This document shows, in pieces, positions 1 through 7,310 of a DNA stretch of 38,735 bases (the stretch's first letter is position 1; each line of letters begins with the position of its first letter). The position numbers were made by a program, and so were the translations under genes. This stretch comes from an uncultured Eubacteriales bacterium (GTDB taxonomy: Bacteria > Bacillota > Clostridia > Peptostreptococcales > Anaerovoracaceae). The stretch is from contig CADAEH010000023.1 of NCBI GenBank assembly GCA_902786855.1, forward strand, positions 1-38,735, given 5' to 3'. A model generated the notes under the pieces. It saw only the letters and a list, made by a program, of their open reading frames with translations, did no database searches and was not told where the DNA came from.

Positions 1-96
1 GCAGAGAAAAATCTGCCTACCGCACGAAGAAAAATCTGCTTACCGGCTGGAGAAAAAACTCCTTACCGCATGATGGCAAATTCATCTTACCATGCA
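1..96 (-). repeat. Array of four short hairpin repeats, probable IS end
   Basis: Four imperfect units of about 23-25 bp lie head to tail (1-23, 24-47, 48-70, 71-96). Read on the minus strand each unit is GGTA(A/G)G, then a 3-5 bp stem around a T-rich loop, then a 3-4 base spacer. The stem sequence differs between units while base pairing is kept (GCAGA/TCTGC, GGAG/CTCC, GATG/CATC on the plus strand); unit 2 keeps only three pairs. IS21-family elements are known to carry multiple terminal repeats that bind transposase, and an IS21-like fragment ends inside unit 4, so a transposon end is the best guess. The array may continue beyond the left edge of the window. Confidence 0.55.
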
Positions 97-354
97 TAAA
101 TCATCCTTGAGCCGTTTGTACAGAAGCGTGTTGTTCATCTGCGGCGTGATCTTCAGCTGTTCAATGAAATACTGACGGTAATTGTCCAGGACGAATTCAT
201 GCCTGCTCTCAAAGGCATGGAAGTCATCCTCCGTCAGATTCCACCATTTGTAGACGGTGTTATACGACAGTCCCATGATCTGTGAAGTCCGGAGCATGCT
301 CGCTCCATAGGCTTTGTGCTCTTGGATCTTCTGGTAAGTTTGGAATGATATCAT
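82..354 (-). pseudogene. IS21-like transposase (IstA) N-terminal fragment
   Basis: This 90-residue frame starts at an ATG preceded by GGGAGG with 9-nt spacing; an upstream in-frame TTG at 363 is less likely. Residues about 4-35 form a helix-turn-helix with the pattern YQKIQEHKAYGAS...SQIMGLSYNTVYKWW, as at the N terminus of IS21 IstA proteins. The segment DNYRQYFIEQLK...LLYKRLKDD matches the linker that follows in that family. A full IstA is several hundred residues and has a DDE catalytic core; here the frame stops before it, inside the hairpin repeats. No istB is visible. It is best read as a dead remnant, perhaps an internal-deletion derivative in which a transposase start is joined to an element end. 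The family call rests on the HTH and linker pattern only. Confidence 0.6.
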
Positions 355-471
355 GATTATCAACCTCCCTTTCGTTATTCAGTTTTTACGGTTTAACGAT
401 TCTGGCGCCGGCAGTTACCTACGCAGCGCCGCCAGCCAGATCATAGGCATCACTCCCTCCTATATGACAAA

Positions 472-495
472 TCCCACAGACCGGAGCCTGTGGGA
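472..495. terminator. Hairpin downstream of the island operon
   Basis: A perfect 8-bp stem (TCCCACAG / CTGTGGGA) with an 8-nt loop sits about 50 nt after the stop of the three-helix membrane gene. The flanks are T-rich but lack a clean T-run on either strand, so terminator activity for the minus-strand operon is plausible rather than shown. The rest of 355-544 holds nothing else I can identify. Confidence 0.45.
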
Positions 496-544
496 ATGTT
501 ATTATTTGTCCTTGCCATCCTCGCCACGATAAGCAAGGACTCGC

Positions 545-1177
545 TTATACTGTTGGAATAATCCAAGCCACAAAGACTACGATGATTAAAACGATAGAAT
601 TTCTCATCAATATATACGATGTTGATATTTCATTGTTTCTCAGTGTATTCTGAAGCTGATTCTTGACGATTACTGCATTATAAGCTTTTCTTTTATCTTC
701 CTCACTTTGTTCCAAAAAATTGTTAGGAAGATAAAAGAAAACATTTTTATTGATAAGCATATTTATTGCATTTAGGCCCGCAGAAAACATGTATATTACA
801 CTAAGAAGCAATATTGCAAAAGCTACCCATTTAAGGCATGCAGAATCATGAGCGATATCTTTCAAATTCCCTGCCACACCAAAAATGATTGAGATTGCAA
901 TAGTGATGCCTGCAATCTGCACTTTTGCTTTATCTTCCATCCTTTCCATGCGATGCCTATTATCTTCCAACAAGCCTTTCAGCATATCTAAATCAGCTTT
1001 CTCTGGTGCCTTAAATTCTCTAAGAACGGACTTATCATCTTCATATGGCAACAAATCTCCAATAGCATCTATCTTTTTTTGTATGCTCTTTCTTGCCTTA
1101 TTTTTCCTTATAGAAGGGAATAAAGAATAGATAACAGCCATTGCAAGATTTCTTTTTTGTTTATCCGTCGTATCCAT
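545..1177 (-). CDS. Three-helix membrane protein of unknown function
   Basis: The protein has 210 residues. The ATG at 1177 lies 1 nt after the stop of the ATP-grasp gene with GAGG 6 nt upstream, so it is chosen over an in-frame start at 1213 that would overlap the ligase gene. A basic N terminus (about 1-40) and a charged helix rich in D, E, R and K (about 60-85) precede hydrophobic spans at about 86-104, 117-137 and 189-209; the last one ends the protein. A charged stretch, LEQSEEDKRK, lies between spans 2 and 3. I do not recognise the family. The layout is like small effector-type membrane proteins in conflict systems such as SLATT-domain proteins, but that is only a resemblance. Position and one-nucleotide spacing tie it to the ligase gene. 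Confidence 0.75.
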   Translation of the reverse strand: MDTTDKQKRNLAMAVIYSLFPSIRKNKARKSIQKKIDAIGDLLPYEDDKSVLREFKAPEKADLDMLKGLLEDNRHRMERMEDKAKVQIAGITIAISIIFGVAGNLKDIAHDSACLKWVAFAILLLSVIYMFSAGLNAINMLINKNVFFYLPNNFLEQSEEDKRKAYNAVIVKNQLQNTLRNNEISTSYILMRNSIVLIIVVFVAWIIPTV

Positions 1178-1178
1178 A

Positions 1179-2114
1179 TCATACCTCGAATGAATCGACG
1201 ATTGCTTCGTCAATTGGACATCCGGTCAGCTTTTTAAGCCAACCCCATTCTCCTGTAGGATTTGTCTCAATGAAGTAATACTTATCATTAGATAGAGCCA
1301 AATCTATGCCCCCCAAACTCAATTCCATTTCCTCCATTAAGAGGCAAAGCTTTTTCTGAACATCTTCGGGAATCGATATCAACGAATACCGTAAAGTCTC
1401 CTTTGGAGTTTTTCTCCAATCCCCAGTAATACCGCCTGTATTATCTTTTATAGAAATTGGGAACATACGACCGTCAACAAATGTCACCCTGATATCAATT
1501 TTGTCTCGAACAAATTGCTGGATGATAACTGGTGCATCCTGAATTTGAACTGTCTTCAACTCATCTCGGCAGACAATTGAGGAATATGTAAACATCTCAC
1601 TTCCATTGTCATAAAACAAAGCTGTATCTAGTGATTTTACTACATATTTCTCATCTGGCAACTCTTCAGGAGCAACATTTCCACACCAGGTATATGGGAC
1701 TTCCAGTCCTACGTCAGCAGCAACTCGTAATTGAAAAAGTTTATTTTCAGCTCGATACGTTTTTACGGGATGATTTATCCATTTTGCCTTGTCAAATATG
1801 ATTAAATTGCGTATGAATGAAGACCACTGTCCTCGCTCAAGCTGTTCGTTGACCGAATATGGCTTTGAATTCCTTAAAAACACTGGTGCTCTAAAATACA
1901 CAGCCTCAAGTATATCATCCGAAATAAGATATGTTAAATCATTGACGACTATAGTCATTTGCTTGCACTGGAGATCAACTAATATCTCATAACTATCAAA
2001 CATATCCCTGTTTATTCGAAGATATGGAATATCCCGCTTTTCAAGTTCAATGCATATATAATCAGTCGAATAATCATATTTATTTGACAAAACTAAAACT
2101 ATTGGCTTATTCAC
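1179..2114 (-). CDS. MvdD-type ATP-grasp ligase (graspetide synthetase family)
   Basis: The N-terminal part (VLVLSNKYDYSTDYI) matches the pre-ATP-grasp domain of MvdC/MvdD-type ligases, which form omega-ester or omega-amide bonds between side chains of a ribosomal peptide. Further family marks are KWINHPVKTYRAENKLFQL, the basic DIRVTFVDGRMF strand, and the C-terminal metal and ATP site GGIDLAL...YYFIETNPTGEWGWL with its E-x-N triad. The GTG at 2114 is preceded by GGCGAGG and puts the family's usual N terminus at residue 5, so I prefer it to the in-frame GTG at 2144. This gives 311 residues, close to the family norm of about 320. It overlaps the 66-residue peptide gene by 8 nt, the usual place of a precursor. 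The substrate is inferred, not shown. Confidence 0.85.
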   Translation of the reverse strand: MNKPIVLVLSNKYDYSTDYICIELEKRDIPYLRINRDMFDSYEILVDLQCKQMTIVVNDLTYLISDDILEAVYFRAPVFLRNSKPYSVNEQLERGQWSSFIRNLIIFDKAKWINHPVKTYRAENKLFQLRVAADVGLEVPYTWCGNVAPEELPDEKYVVKSLDTALFYDNGSEMFTYSSIVCRDELKTVQIQDAPVIIQQFVRDKIDIRVTFVDGRMFPISIKDNTGGITGDWRKTPKETLRYSLISIPEDVQKKLCLLMEEMELSLGGIDLALSNDKYYFIETNPTGEWGWLKKLTGCPIDEAIVDSFEV

Positions 2115-2307
2115 CTTTTTGGTCCTCGCCTGTTTCGATATCACATTTTTTTGTTTCTCCTGCGCGAAATGATTCGCACATTATTGCCGCATTCCCGTCA
2201 TGAGTTCTCCAGTATCCACTAACCTCGTCATAGTTACAATTGTCTGGTTCTCTTAATGTCAAAGGTTCCGGATATGTAAATGCTTTTTCTAACAATATAT
2301 GTCCCAT
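2107..2307 (-). CDS. 66-residue peptide, candidate graspetide precursor
   Basis: The short gene lies directly before the ATP-grasp gene, which starts inside its last codons. It starts with ATG, with AGGAG 12 nt upstream, a longer spacing than usual. The N-terminal half (LLEKAFTYPEPLTLREPD) could be a leader. The C-terminal part has many possible donors and acceptors for side-chain ester or amide links: S, T and K beside D and E, ending in GETKKCDIETGEDQKGE. Two cysteines fall in the same region. There is no PFFARFL-type microviridin leader motif, so it would belong to another graspetide group or be a different kind of small partner. The evidence is gene position, size and residue make-up; the product is not proven. 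Confidence 0.6.
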   Translation of the reverse strand: MGHILLEKAFTYPEPLTLREPDNCNYDEVSGYWRTHDGNAAIMCESFRAGETKKCDIETGEDQKGE

Positions 2308-2337
2308 ATTATATTTTTACTCCTATCACAAGTTGCC

Positions 2338-2733
2338 TCAATAACCCCTTATAGCTTTTACAATCGAATCCGTATTCCATCCAACTATTACATCAGCTGC
2401 ATTTTTCACGACAGAAGATGTTCTTTCTACACCCCAAGGTTGCACAGCAATGATCTTTTTGCCCATTGACCTAGCAAGTTCTATTTCGATATTAATCCAT
2501 TTGCTATAAGTGGCATAGACTCCCGCGAGAATAAGGATACAGCTTGCTGGTTGCATCTGTTTTCTTATTGCTTCCTTTAATTGATAGTCATAACGAGCAT
2601 TATGGATGGGATCATTCTTCGGAACAGAATAGTTCCTATATGAAAAATATGGTTTTGCATCCAATAGTGCAATCAAGCTTTCGTAGGCATCCGAGTAAGT
2701 CCACGAATGACTAATAAATAAGTTGTACGCCAT
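2338..2733 (-). CDS. TIR-like (MTH538/DUF1863, ThsB-like) domain protein
   Basis: The protein has 131 residues. The ATG at 2733 follows a very strong GAGGAGGAG site with 3-nt spacing; an upstream start at 2754 would overlap the preceding gene and is less likely. The sequence opens with YNLFISHSW, followed by SYRNYSVPKNDPIHN, LKEAIRKQMQPASCILILAG and YSKWINIEIELARSMGKKIIAVQPWG, which is the MTH538 TIR-like fold pattern. Relatives include ThsB of Thoeris, where the TIR protein makes a nucleotide signal after phage infection. In TIR enzymes a conserved Glu takes part in catalysis; the E in WINIEIELAR is a candidate. It sits 10 nt after a RipA-like membrane gene, a pairing seen elsewhere, so a joint defence role is inferred. 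Confidence 0.85.
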   Translation of the reverse strand: MAYNLFISHSWTYSDAYESLIALLDAKPYFSYRNYSVPKNDPIHNARYDYQLKEAIRKQMQPASCILILAGVYATYSKWINIEIELARSMGKKIIAVQPWGVERTSSVVKNAADVIVGWNTDSIVKAIRGY

Positions 2734-2743
2734 TTTCTCCTCC

Positions 2744-3178
2744 TCAATGTACAAATTTGATAATCACTGCAACAATCACATAGATACAAATAAATGTAAT
2801 CGGTATGATCCTCTCAAGTTTTGTGCCATCGTAATACTTTTTTGTCTTTTGTAGAATCTCCCATTCATCTCTAAATGGGGCTGTGGGCAATTCTCTCTCT
2901 AGAGAATCTATAACCTCGAATTTTGCAGAATTTAACAATTTGAAATTTCTTATAAAGCAGAGCCACAGCCCACATATAATAGCGCCGGCACACAACAGAA
3001 GAATAGATTTCGGACTCCAAACAAAAGAAACTGTCGCTAGAATACCAAGGTTTAAAGTCACAAAAATATTATTCATCATATCCCTTCTTTGGCTCGTTGC
3101 ATTTGCCATTTCTATACAAGTCTGCCACTGAGCAAGAACACTTTTTACATCTGTTACATCTTTCTTATCATTCTGCAT
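2744..3178 (-). CDS. RipA-like small integral membrane protein
   Basis: The protein has 144 residues from the ATG at 3178; GAGTG lies upstream and a TTG at 3217 is a weaker option. The pattern QWQTCIEMANATSQRRDMMNNIF runs into hydrophobic spans at about 36-53 and 58-78. A soluble stretch, NSAKFEVIDSLERELPTAPFRDEW, follows, then a last span at about 125-142. This layout, with the conserved LP..PF..EW element, matches proteins annotated as the RipA family of octameric membrane proteins. Such genes are often beside TIR-like genes. A role as membrane effector or scaffold for the TIR protein is inference. Confidence 0.75.
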   Translation of the reverse strand: MQNDKKDVTDVKSVLAQWQTCIEMANATSQRRDMMNNIFVTLNLGILATVSFVWSPKSILLLCAGAIICGLWLCFIRNFKLLNSAKFEVIDSLERELPTAPFRDEWEILQKTKKYYDGTKLERIIPITFICIYVIVAVIIKFVH

Positions 3179-3218
3179 AGTAATCACTCTATGTCCATAT
3201 CTTACACTTGCATACAAA

Positions 3219-4271
3219 CTATACTGCTATCATGTACTGTTCTTTTAAATTATTCAGCATGCTGTACTTAATCATGCCTTCTCTTTGCATTCTTCCAACC
3301 ACAATACCAGGTGCGATTTGTTGCTCTTTTGCAAACCTAATAACACTTTTTTCCGAATAATCATTCTTCTCCCTGAAAGAATTGAAATCGTCTTCACTTA
3401 TAAGTGTATCACCAGACCATTTGTCAGCATTCTTCTCATCTTCTTCTGTTGTTCCATTCAGCTGACCAATATGGCCTAAAACAATATGTGCTAGTTCGTG
3501 GAACAAACTGAACCAGAACCTATCTGCATCCTTACCTCTAGCCGTAAGTCCCATGACTATCTTGTTGCCGTCAATAAAAGTTGCTCCCTGCAGAAATGAA
3601 CCTTTTAGATGTGGAAGAAACACCAATGCTATACCACAATCCGCTAGGCATTTCATAATAAGTGGACAAAACTCTTTTGGCTTCAAAACTGTCATTTTTC
3701 TGATTTCAGGAAGTGCTGCAATCAATCCTTTAATATTAATTGGCGCAGTTTGGATGTCCCGAGCTTTTATTTTTGCTTCCTGCGCCCACGCTATCAATGC
3801 CAAATCGCTTTTCTCGGTAATGGCTAGCCTTCTACATGCAATTCTTGTGATTTGTTCATTTCCAAGAAGAGATAGTTCGACAACTTCAAAGTATTTTCTC
3901 AGATAGACCACTTTTTCTTTTGCATTTCTTGTTTGAGAAACCCATCCATATTTTGCCATTTCGCTATATGGAAACTGCTTAGCTATTTCTGTATCAGCAT
4001 CCATTGCGTTTTCTGCCTTGACCTTTACAATCTTCTCCCTATAAACTGCCTCAAGATTATTCCAAAACTTAGCCGGAACTCCGAGTACCATTTCTAATCT
4101 TAAAGCAGTTTCAGGAGTGAGCTGTACCTCTCCGTTAATGAGCTTACTTATGTGTTTTTCTGACATATCCATTCTGGCAGCAAACTCTTTCTGGCTCATT
4201 CCCCGGTCTATTAACTGTTCTTTTATTGTCGCTCCCGGTGGTGTAGCAACAAAACTGCGACTCCTCATCAT
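3219..4271 (-). CDS. HigA-type antitoxin fused to an ImmA/IrrE-like metalloprotease
   Basis: The protein has 350 residues. Residues about 14-70 are an Xre/HigA-type helix-turn-helix (ATIKEQLIDRGMSQKEFA...SEKHISKLINGE). The C-terminal half has the zinc protease motif FHELAHIVLGH with HEXXH at 258-262, as in ImmA/IrrE proteins, which cut repressors or antitoxins when activated. It starts with ATG after AAGGAGG and follows the HigB-like gene by 32 nt, the usual toxin-first higBA order. It probably binds the palindrome at 4670-4704 through its HTH. Having repressor and protease in one chain suggests derepression by self- or trans-cleavage; this is inferred from the family. Confidence 0.88.
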   Translation of the reverse strand: MMRSRSFVATPPGATIKEQLIDRGMSQKEFAARMDMSEKHISKLINGEVQLTPETALRLEMVLGVPAKFWNNLEAVYREKIVKVKAENAMDADTEIAKQFPYSEMAKYGWVSQTRNAKEKVVYLRKYFEVVELSLLGNEQITRIACRRLAITEKSDLALIAWAQEAKIKARDIQTAPINIKGLIAALPEIRKMTVLKPKEFCPLIMKCLADCGIALVFLPHLKGSFLQGATFIDGNKIVMGLTARGKDADRFWFSLFHELAHIVLGHIGQLNGTTEEDEKNADKWSGDTLISEDDFNSFREKNDYSEKSVIRFAKEQQIAPGIVVGRMQREGMIKYSMLNNLKEQYMIAV

Positions 4272-4303
4272 ACTAATTCCTCCTTGCTTCTATCTTTCCA
4301 TCA

Positions 4304-4600
4304 TTAATGATAATCAACGATTTCCAAAACAATAGCAATTTGGATCTCGTCTCCTTTCTTCTCGAAAACCAATCTATATGGATGAACCAAATCCACAGCA
4401 TATTGTCCTTTTCTATTTTGCTTAAGCGGATGGCATCGACCAATATGAAATTCTATCAACATTTCAACGGAATCTGCTGCTGTAATCTGATCAATACGTT
4501 GCTGTATTTTTTCGGCCATTTTTCTGCCGTACATTTTCTCTGCGGCATTGGCATCTGTACAAACTTTTTTAATTTTCTTATTCTTGTACGTGATATCCAA
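4304..4600 (-). CDS. HigB-like RelE/ParE-superfamily toxin
   Basis: The protein has about 98 residues. The sequence ITYKNKKIKKVCTDANAAEKMYG, with RIDQITAADSVEMLIEF, GRCHPLKQNRKGQYAVDL and YRLVFE, fits HigB-type toxins of the RelE/ParE fold, many of which cut mRNA on the ribosome. The start is set by the promoter. A strong minus-strand promoter (-35 at 4665-4670, -10 at 4642-4647) puts transcription start near 4635, downstream of a possible GTG at 4651. The TTG at 4600 follows AGAGGTG with good spacing and gives a normal HigB length. The gene heads the seven-gene run of the island. Confidence 0.8.
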   Translation of the reverse strand: MDITYKNKKIKKVCTDANAAEKMYGRKMAEKIQQRIDQITAADSVEMLIEFHIGRCHPLKQNRKGQYAVDLVHPYRLVFEKKGDEIQIAIVLEIVDYH

Positions 4601-4641
4601 TTCTTCACCTCTAATTTCAAATTTACCTATGAGGTTAATTG

Positions 4642-4670
4642 ATGATAACACATTGCCTGAATATAGTCAA
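4642..4670 (-). promoter_or_regulatory. Promoter of the island operon
   Basis: TTGACT (4665-4670), a 17-bp spacer and TATCAT (4642-4647) make a near-consensus housekeeping promoter. It reads into the HigB-like gene and is the only strong promoter I see for the seven genes down to 545. The -35 box touches the edge of the palindrome at 4670-4704. Confidence 0.75.
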
Positions 4671-4704
4671 CAACGCAATTTACCTTAAAGGTAAATTGCG
4701 TTGT
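4670..4704. promoter_or_regulatory. 35-bp perfect palindrome, probable HigA operator
   Basis: The 17-bp arms ACAACGCAATTTACCTT and their exact complement flank a single central A. The site adjoins the -35 box of the toxin-antitoxin operon, where HigA-type repressors normally bind. It is longer than a typical operator, so binding by two dimers or a second role as a hairpin is possible. Confidence 0.6.
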
Positions 4705-4715
4705 ATCCTTTCTGC

Positions 4716-4808
4716 CTATTGTCTCCTGTATTTCGGCGCGAATACTATGTGGTAATGACATCGCCATTTTGAATGTGATAAACTGTTTATGTCATCATTT
4801 TTATTCAT
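4716..4808 (-). pseudogene. IS200/IS605 TnpA transposase, N-terminal remnant
   Basis: The frame starts with ATG after AAAGGAGG and encodes 30 residues ending at TAG. It contains SLSHSKWRCHYHIVFAPKYR, which is the hallmark start of IS200/IS605 TnpA (Y1) transposases. The catalytic HUH motif and tyrosine would lie further on and are absent, so the element is dead. A 7-bp hairpin upstream at 4902-4918 fits the subterminal left-end hairpin of this family. The remnant is cut off about 12 nt before the palindrome of the toxin-antitoxin locus and marks the right border of the island. Confidence 0.85.
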
Positions 4809-4901
4809 TGTTTATTACCTCCTTTGCTCTGAGATGCGGTTGGTAGCCACTCTCATGTTAGCATTGGAGGTATTTTTCTTGAAGCTAAAGCCTCTTATTC
4901 T

Positions 4902-4918
4902 CACCGGCATAGCCGGTG
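4902..4918. mobile_element. Subterminal hairpin of the IS200/IS605 remnant
   Basis: CACCGGC and GCCGGTG pair around a 3-nt loop, about 95 nt upstream of the truncated tnpA. IS200/IS605 ends carry such hairpins as TnpA binding sites. The rest of 4809-4941 has no convincing gene. Confidence 0.5.
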
Positions 4919-4941
4919 GATTTATCACGCTGAAGCTACAT

Positions 4942-4971
4942 AAAAAGAATTCCCGGAACGAATCCGGGAAT
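4942..4971 (-). terminator. Rho-independent terminator after the rRNA methyltransferase gene
   Basis: A 9-bp stem (ATTCCCGGA / TCCGGGAAT) with a 5-nt loop is followed on the minus strand by TTCTTTTTAT. It lies 19 nt after the stop at 4990 and probably ends the ruvC-ruvA-ruvB-queA-tgt transcript. Confidence 0.8.
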
Positions 4972-4989
4972 CCACTGTTTTCAACGCTT

Positions 4990-7310
<2,321 letters not shown>

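Follow-up and report, generated by a model that had tools for sequence, protein, structure and literature searches.

The subject of this study is a genomic island near the start of a 38,735-nucleotide (nt) stretch of DNA, here called the window, from contig CADAEH010000023.1 of an uncultured Eubacteriales bacterium. Seven consecutive open reading frames (ORFs), all on the minus strand, lie between positions 545 and 4651, with a palindrome upstream of them that reaches to 4704 (Table 1). With the likelier ATG starts, adjacent genes are at most 40 nt apart and overlap by up to 38 nt, which confirms the tight one-strand run reported in a preliminary description of the locus. The family assignments made there were likewise upheld by Pfam, NCBIfam and PADLOC matches; what had been taken for a pair of ligases is one ligase and its precursor peptide. 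The GC content of the island is 0.37-0.39, compared with 0.46-0.50 in the neighbouring chromosomal genes. The seven genes are three separate modules lying side by side: a HigBA-ImmA pair, an 8xMP-TIR pair and a graspetide trio, in which a precursor and an ATP-grasp ligase are accompanied by a membrane protein with three transmembrane (three-TM) spans.

Table 1. Features of the island and its edges. The 8xMP, TIR and three-TM genes are given from their likelier ATG starts (3178, 2733 and 1177; codons checked).
Feature	Position	Strand	Basis
Palindrome, perfect 17+17, probable HigA operator	4670..4704	.	arms recur in relatives
Promoter-like site with extended -10, between both operator-like copies	4642..4670	-	such sites no commoner than in shuffled sequence
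HigB/RelE-like toxin gene, start uncertain	4304..4651	-	below cut-off; precedes HigA in 26/30 loci
Fusion of a HigA-like Xre domain with an ImmA/IrrE peptidase	3219..4271	-	HTH_3 2.6e-12, Peptidase_M78 6e-6
8xMP (RipA-like) membrane protein; ORF open to 3217	2744..3178	-	PF24838 2.6e-32, 111.9 bits vs cut-off 30
ThsB/MTH538-type TIR protein; ORF open to 2754	2338..2733	-	ThsB_TIR PF08937 2.6e-17; PADLOC ThsB 1.9e-17; MTH538 structure 1eiw
Graspetide-type precursor, 66 aa	2107..2307	-	fixed core = last 15 codons (2110-2154)
Graspetide-type ATP-grasp ligase; GTG start overlaps precursor, start uncertain	1179..2144	-	TIGR04187, MvdC, 7m4s
Helical three-TM protein that accompanies precursor and ligase; ORF open to 1213	545..1177	-	family profile in 41/42 ligase loci
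IS200-like transposase (TnpA start) fragment, upstream edge	4719..4808	-	PF01797 E 0.0014, below cut-off
IS21-like HTH fragment, downstream edge	82..363	-	NF033546 E 0.0015, below cut-off

Graspetides are generally regarded as natural products whose cores are diverse. The ligase of the window matched TIGR04187 at 1e-49 (169 bits against a cut-off of 350) and the MvdC family TIGR04185 at 2e-46 (159 against 425), and thus scores below the cut-off of both named NCBIfam subfamilies; it matched the AMdnB structure 7m4s at 5e-46. Genome contigs were scanned with a five-sequence ligase alignment, the patterns being drawn from the ligase only, and 42 loci were recovered. At 39 of these a small ORF ending in [ST]KKxDxETGEDxKGx was found just upstream of the ligase. 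The three exceptions were a locus with its frame broken after TKK (L044), a partial ligase match (L048) and a sequence that is not a member (L049). The family profile of the membrane protein was found at 41 of the 42 loci. The peptide, ligase and membrane protein therefore hold together as a unit, as had been proposed. Moreover, a tblastn search of plasmids with the window ligase returned 72 records. Four of the best matches, all from Alphaproteobacteria, were inspected; each carried this trio, and in one of them the membrane gene is split. The core sequence itself led to two viral contigs, and on the viral contig L104 the trio is set between a gene for a neck protein and one for a head maturation protease.

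The trio was found in six bacterial phyla (some via metagenome bins), in plasmids and in phage DNA. The ligase is sporadic, being present in 1 of 148 genomes of the same family and 8 of 398 of the same phylum, the window's own counted. Among the same-phylum genomes with the ligase, three others (L107-L109) have a core-bearing precursor, one of which is the same peptide as that of L013 and one of which ends in Thr. The other four (L110-L113) carry repeat-type precursors. In a ligase tree, the window sequence groups with Bacillota, so that its host probably belongs to that phylum. The tree also contains very close cross-genus pairs, one of them identical (Sagittula and Roseovarius), which suggests transfer, bearing in mind that bins can hold stray contigs. 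Separately, precursors with T..EDDD-like repeats, next to a ligase related to that of the trio and to a likely membrane protein (approximately 207 to 383 aa), were seen at L110-L113 and at L052 and L053, which are a Leptospira phage and a phage scaffold.

The last 15 residues of the precursor, hereafter the core, are nearly fixed. Their mean identity over the 39 loci was 0.81 (741 pairs), compared with 0.32 for the rest of the precursor (741 pairs), 0.45 for the ligase (200 pairs) and 0.29 for the membrane protein (192 pairs). For the 105 pairs whose ligases are less than 42% identical, the core still averaged 0.78 and the rest of the precursor 0.26. Ten of the 15 core positions were identical in 45 sequences. 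The strict search expression imposes exactly these ten residues; a looser expression recovered these 39 loci too, and neither of them requires the Thr or Ser that occupies position -15 in 45/45. Hardly a letter of the core differs even between Bacillota, Alphaproteobacteria and Bacteroidota. Synonymous codons vary at the fixed residues, pointing to selection on the peptide. Each precursor carries a single, C-terminal copy of the core, with conserved Thr/Ser/Lys and Asp/Glu residues, through whose side chains the ligase most likely cross-links it. The window precursor had no match in Pfam, and 49 precursors searched against NCBIfam gave two matches, the best at E 0.15. Two tandem precursor genes precede one ligase at 5 of the 39 loci (L012, L025, L028, L038, L039), the leaders differing and the core being the same; with tandem genes counted, the 39 loci gave 44 peptides. 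Such constancy is unusual because graspetide cores are reported to be diverse even beside closely similar ligases (Makarova 2022, PMC8939145).

The membrane protein encoded alongside this core is predicted to be helical. Hydropathy gave three spans, and an AlphaFold2 model consists of long helices (pLDDT 86.5, pTM 0.80). In an alignment of 38 members Lys95 is invariant, and Asn189, Arg204 and Asn205 are nearly so. A Pfam search with these 38 members gave a best E-value of 0.0011 among the 25 of 36 families listed, the commonest of which was matched weakly by 5 members, and no matches were found among PDB sequences.

The second module comprises the 8xMP membrane protein and the TIR protein. PF24838, the 8xMP family, was present in 11 of 398 same-phylum genomes. 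Of 10 non-window genome loci, L055 alone has 8xMP followed by a same-strand TIR gene, the order seen in the window. A tblastn search of plasmids with the window 8xMP gave 17 records, of which 13 were inspected (three further ones from Leptolyngbya boryana and one from Natronosalvus were left out). In six of these 13 a same-strand TIR gene abuts 8xMP (Paenarthrobacter, Polaromonas, Synechococcus, Novosphingobium, Natronorubrum, Haladaptatus), and the Synechococcus TIR protein is 57% identical to that of the window. The pair thus recurs in plasmids and in other genomes, in either gene order and with archaea included, and its proposed standing as a unit is sustained. Two of the loci (L070, L072) are haloarchaeal TIR-8xMP pairs, in one of which the TIR protein exceeds 300 aa. 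Other arrangements were also seen: on an 8 kb Helicobacter pylori plasmid (AP026445, L073) 8xMP-like and ThsB-like TIR ORFs face each other on opposite strands, while on a Rhizobium leguminosarum plasmid (L068) 8xMP lies right behind a gene for an NB-ARC protein, a partner other than TIR. By analogy with Thoeris, a nucleotide signal made by the TIR protein would probably act on the membrane protein as effector. The pair is a second candidate immune pair, one that is found in haloarchaea too and whose 8xMP half, in the window and in six relatives, matched no model in PADLOC-DB 2.0.0.

The third module is, judged from its sequence, a common type II toxin-antitoxin pair of HigB and HigA-ImmA, with the toxin gene first and a probable palindromic operator upstream. 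The toxin matched a HigB-like Pfam family at E 0.0016, which is below cut-off. Of 398 same-phylum genomes, 44, with that of the window among them, hold a relative of HigA-ImmA at E 1e-40 or better, and a HigB-like ORF lies upstream of HigA at 26 of 30 loci drawn from this search, again including the window. Of the four loci without one, two begin at the edge of a contig or close to it, and a third has a stop. No recurring gene was found downstream of HigA in the 0.5-1.5 kb available at the 30 loci, where ORFs of different loci were unmatched at 1e-5. The palindrome is best read as the operator of HigBA itself, since arms of the TTTACCT..AGGTAAA type were found upstream of higB in the window and in 4 of the 7 relatives examined. 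Across the promoter-like site from it there is a weaker copy, at 4620-4641. One strong promoter and a palindrome had been described ahead of the run. The palindrome is there and is perfect, as is a promoter-like site; such sites are no commoner over positions 1-7000 (17) than in shuffled sequence (19.2, standard deviation 4.3), and a single transcript for all seven genes is therefore unsupported. Read-through from the HigBA promoter into the 8xMP-TIR and trio modules is possible.

The preliminary description had treated the seven genes as one system switched by the protease-repressor and had named recurrence of the RipA-like, TIR, peptide, ATP-grasp and three-helix genes as a block as the sign of a unit. 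We compared the neighbourhoods of 50 non-window loci with the trio membrane protein (flanks of at most 7 kb, shorter at contig ends, with three loci at approximately 1.5 kb). The same was done for 15 8xMP loci outside the window, most of them with flanks of 1.5-4 kb. 8xMP was found at none of the 50 and the trio membrane protein at none of the 15, within flanks that could miss a rare or distant pairing of the modules. Within these flanks the block did not recur, an outcome that the preliminary description itself had named as counting against a unit: the modules are found apart. They do share surroundings, as a TIR gene lies near the trio at 2 of the 50 loci (L015, L026) and a HigBA-like pair lies near L048.

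We also searched the genes around the trio, taking up to two nearest genes per side at 40 loci (149 genes, called with a crude ORF caller that took at least one wrong frame, L026:5665-6228, which had no match). These genes matched 210 PADLOC families at 1e-8 and 42 at 1e-40, counts that are of families rather than proteins, as one protein can match several. The matches include HamB, PtuA, an oligonucleotide cyclase, a 2TM effector and a type IIG restriction enzyme, as well as ThsB, AbiLi, PD-Lambda-3_B and PD-T7-4. A control of 102 genes from 14 arbitrarily placed stretches, small and confined to the same phylum, matched 8 families at 1e-8, and its strongest match had an E-value of 7.7e-39. 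Against this imperfect control, the flanks of the trio are rich in defence genes. Pfam families among the same 149 genes (25 of 141 listed) include integrases, transposases and TIR, and metabolic families also.

As an explanation of the whole island we propose three independent conflict modules stacked together, one of which would use an intracellular peptide to control a membrane protein, and we give this reading about an even chance of being right. In the trio, the modified peptide would stay in the cell as the cognate ligand of the three-TM protein, either as its antitoxin or as its trigger, and the three-TM protein would act on the membrane and so stop phage infection or superinfection. 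An intracellular peptide is preferred over an exported one because of the constancy of the core and the genomic setting: a near-fixed core beside a membrane protein, often amid defence genes, suggests that its partner lies within the cell that makes it. The sequences show the modules, their separate recurrence, the fixed core and its linkage to the membrane protein; the cross-links, the binding between peptide and membrane protein and the role in defence we infer. The fuller statement, that a cross-linked ribosomally synthesised and post-translationally modified peptide (RiPP) with a nearly universal core gates a three-TM effector in phage defence or superinfection exclusion, is offered tentatively. 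Several points weigh against our reading, beginning with the limits of the flank comparison given above. A structure search with the membrane protein model gave no convincing or confident match, and the membrane gene is split or shortened at L005, L013, L044, L107 and L108. 8xMP lacks a same-strand TIR gene at 7 of the 13 plasmid loci, with one opposite-strand TIR and none at the other six. The constancy of the core would be explained just as well by a peptide that is exported and has a single conserved target, and transport is what Makarova 2022 proposes for the membrane proteins of related repeat-type loci (PMC8939145).

These last two points lead to the alternative that survives best, although we consider it rather unlikely: the trio would make an exported graspetide (an antimicrobial, protease inhibitor or signal), with the three-TM protein as exporter or as immunity of the producer. 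It draws on the transport of peptides that Makarova 2022 (PMC8939145) proposed for cluster 18 membrane proteins of thuringinin loci, and on the related ligases of L110-L113 and of phage DNA (L052, L053), which accompany repeat-type precursors and likely membrane proteins. It has to accommodate a core that is nearly invariant, unlike the diverse ones in the same source, and a recurring unit of three genes only; neither a peptidase nor a transporter was seen to recur among the commonest Pfam families in the 149 flank genes (25 of 141 listed). An improbable alternative is that the trio is unrelated to phages and is a mobile stress or envelope cassette, found beside defence genes since islands gather cargo; the weakness of the flank control and the metabolic genes among the flanks would suit this, while the sporadic distribution and the occurrence of the trio on plasmids and within a block of phage genes speak against it. 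Lastly, that all seven genes form a single system, whose TIR, 8xMP and graspetide genes the HigA-ImmA protease-repressor would release on infection, is very improbable, for the tight one-strand spacing behind one promoter-like site is outweighed by the separate recurrence of the modules (0/50 and 0/15 loci shared, in short flanks) and by HigBA relatives that have no fixed downstream gene.

At the edges of the island, the transposon remnants described earlier were recovered as matches to IS200-like and IS21-like elements, both of them weak and below cut-off. The window begins at base 1 of the contig, and any part of the island past that edge is out of view. Three tandem 23-nt repeats lie at this contig edge (5-73) and are perhaps the end of an insertion element. 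On the chromosomal side, the neighbouring gene (4993-6187, minus strand) resembles an RNA uracil-5 methyltransferase and is split: the main ORF (5129-6187) stops short of the profile's end, and that end is found in another frame (4993-5187), reflecting a frameshift or a sequencing error.

A search of the open-licence literature, main texts being its scope, found nothing that describes the core or a defence module made up of a graspetide and a membrane protein, and strings of the core returned 0 papers. The trio could already be among the loci of cluster 18 or cluster 40 (PMC8939145) or in one of 43 numbered groups (PMC13097080). A further study (PMC11118758) suggests, on co-expression evidence, a possible general link of RiPPs with phage interactions. 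If our reading of the trio is true, RiPP chemistry would be joined to bacterial immunity, in three-gene cassettes small enough for direct testing.

Each module resembles a known system and departs from it. HigBA-ImmA recalls PD-lambda-2, in which a HigB-like gene is followed by an Xre-peptidase fusion, and the window HigA-ImmA matched PADLOC PD-Lambda-2_B (PDLC03982) at E 1e-38 over residues 12-345 of 350. The toxin, in the place of the A component, had no PADLOC match up to 0.1. The third component of PD-lambda-2 is related to a P4 antitoxin (Vassallo 2022, PMC9519451); such a gene is absent here and the next gene is 8xMP, which has no PADLOC match. The TIR protein is of the ThsB/MTH538 type, as in Thoeris, but no ThsA was found among the 8 window proteins scanned and the partner is the 8xMP membrane protein. 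That protein is a member of the octameric 8xMP/RipA-like family (PF24838), which is broad and of which TIR-linked members are one part. The trio shares with graspetide clusters, above all those of the thuringinin type, an MvdC/MvdD-like ATP-grasp ligase, an adjacent precursor and an uncharacterised membrane protein (PMC8939145, PMC13097080). The membrane proteins of repeat-type loci (L052, L053, L112) were not reached by the trio profile at 1e-5, L053 matching weakly at E 0.0043 and L052 and L112 being unlisted. Compared with thuringinin loci (Makarova 2022, PMC8939145), where cores are tandem and variable, trios of the window type carry one fixed C-terminal core.

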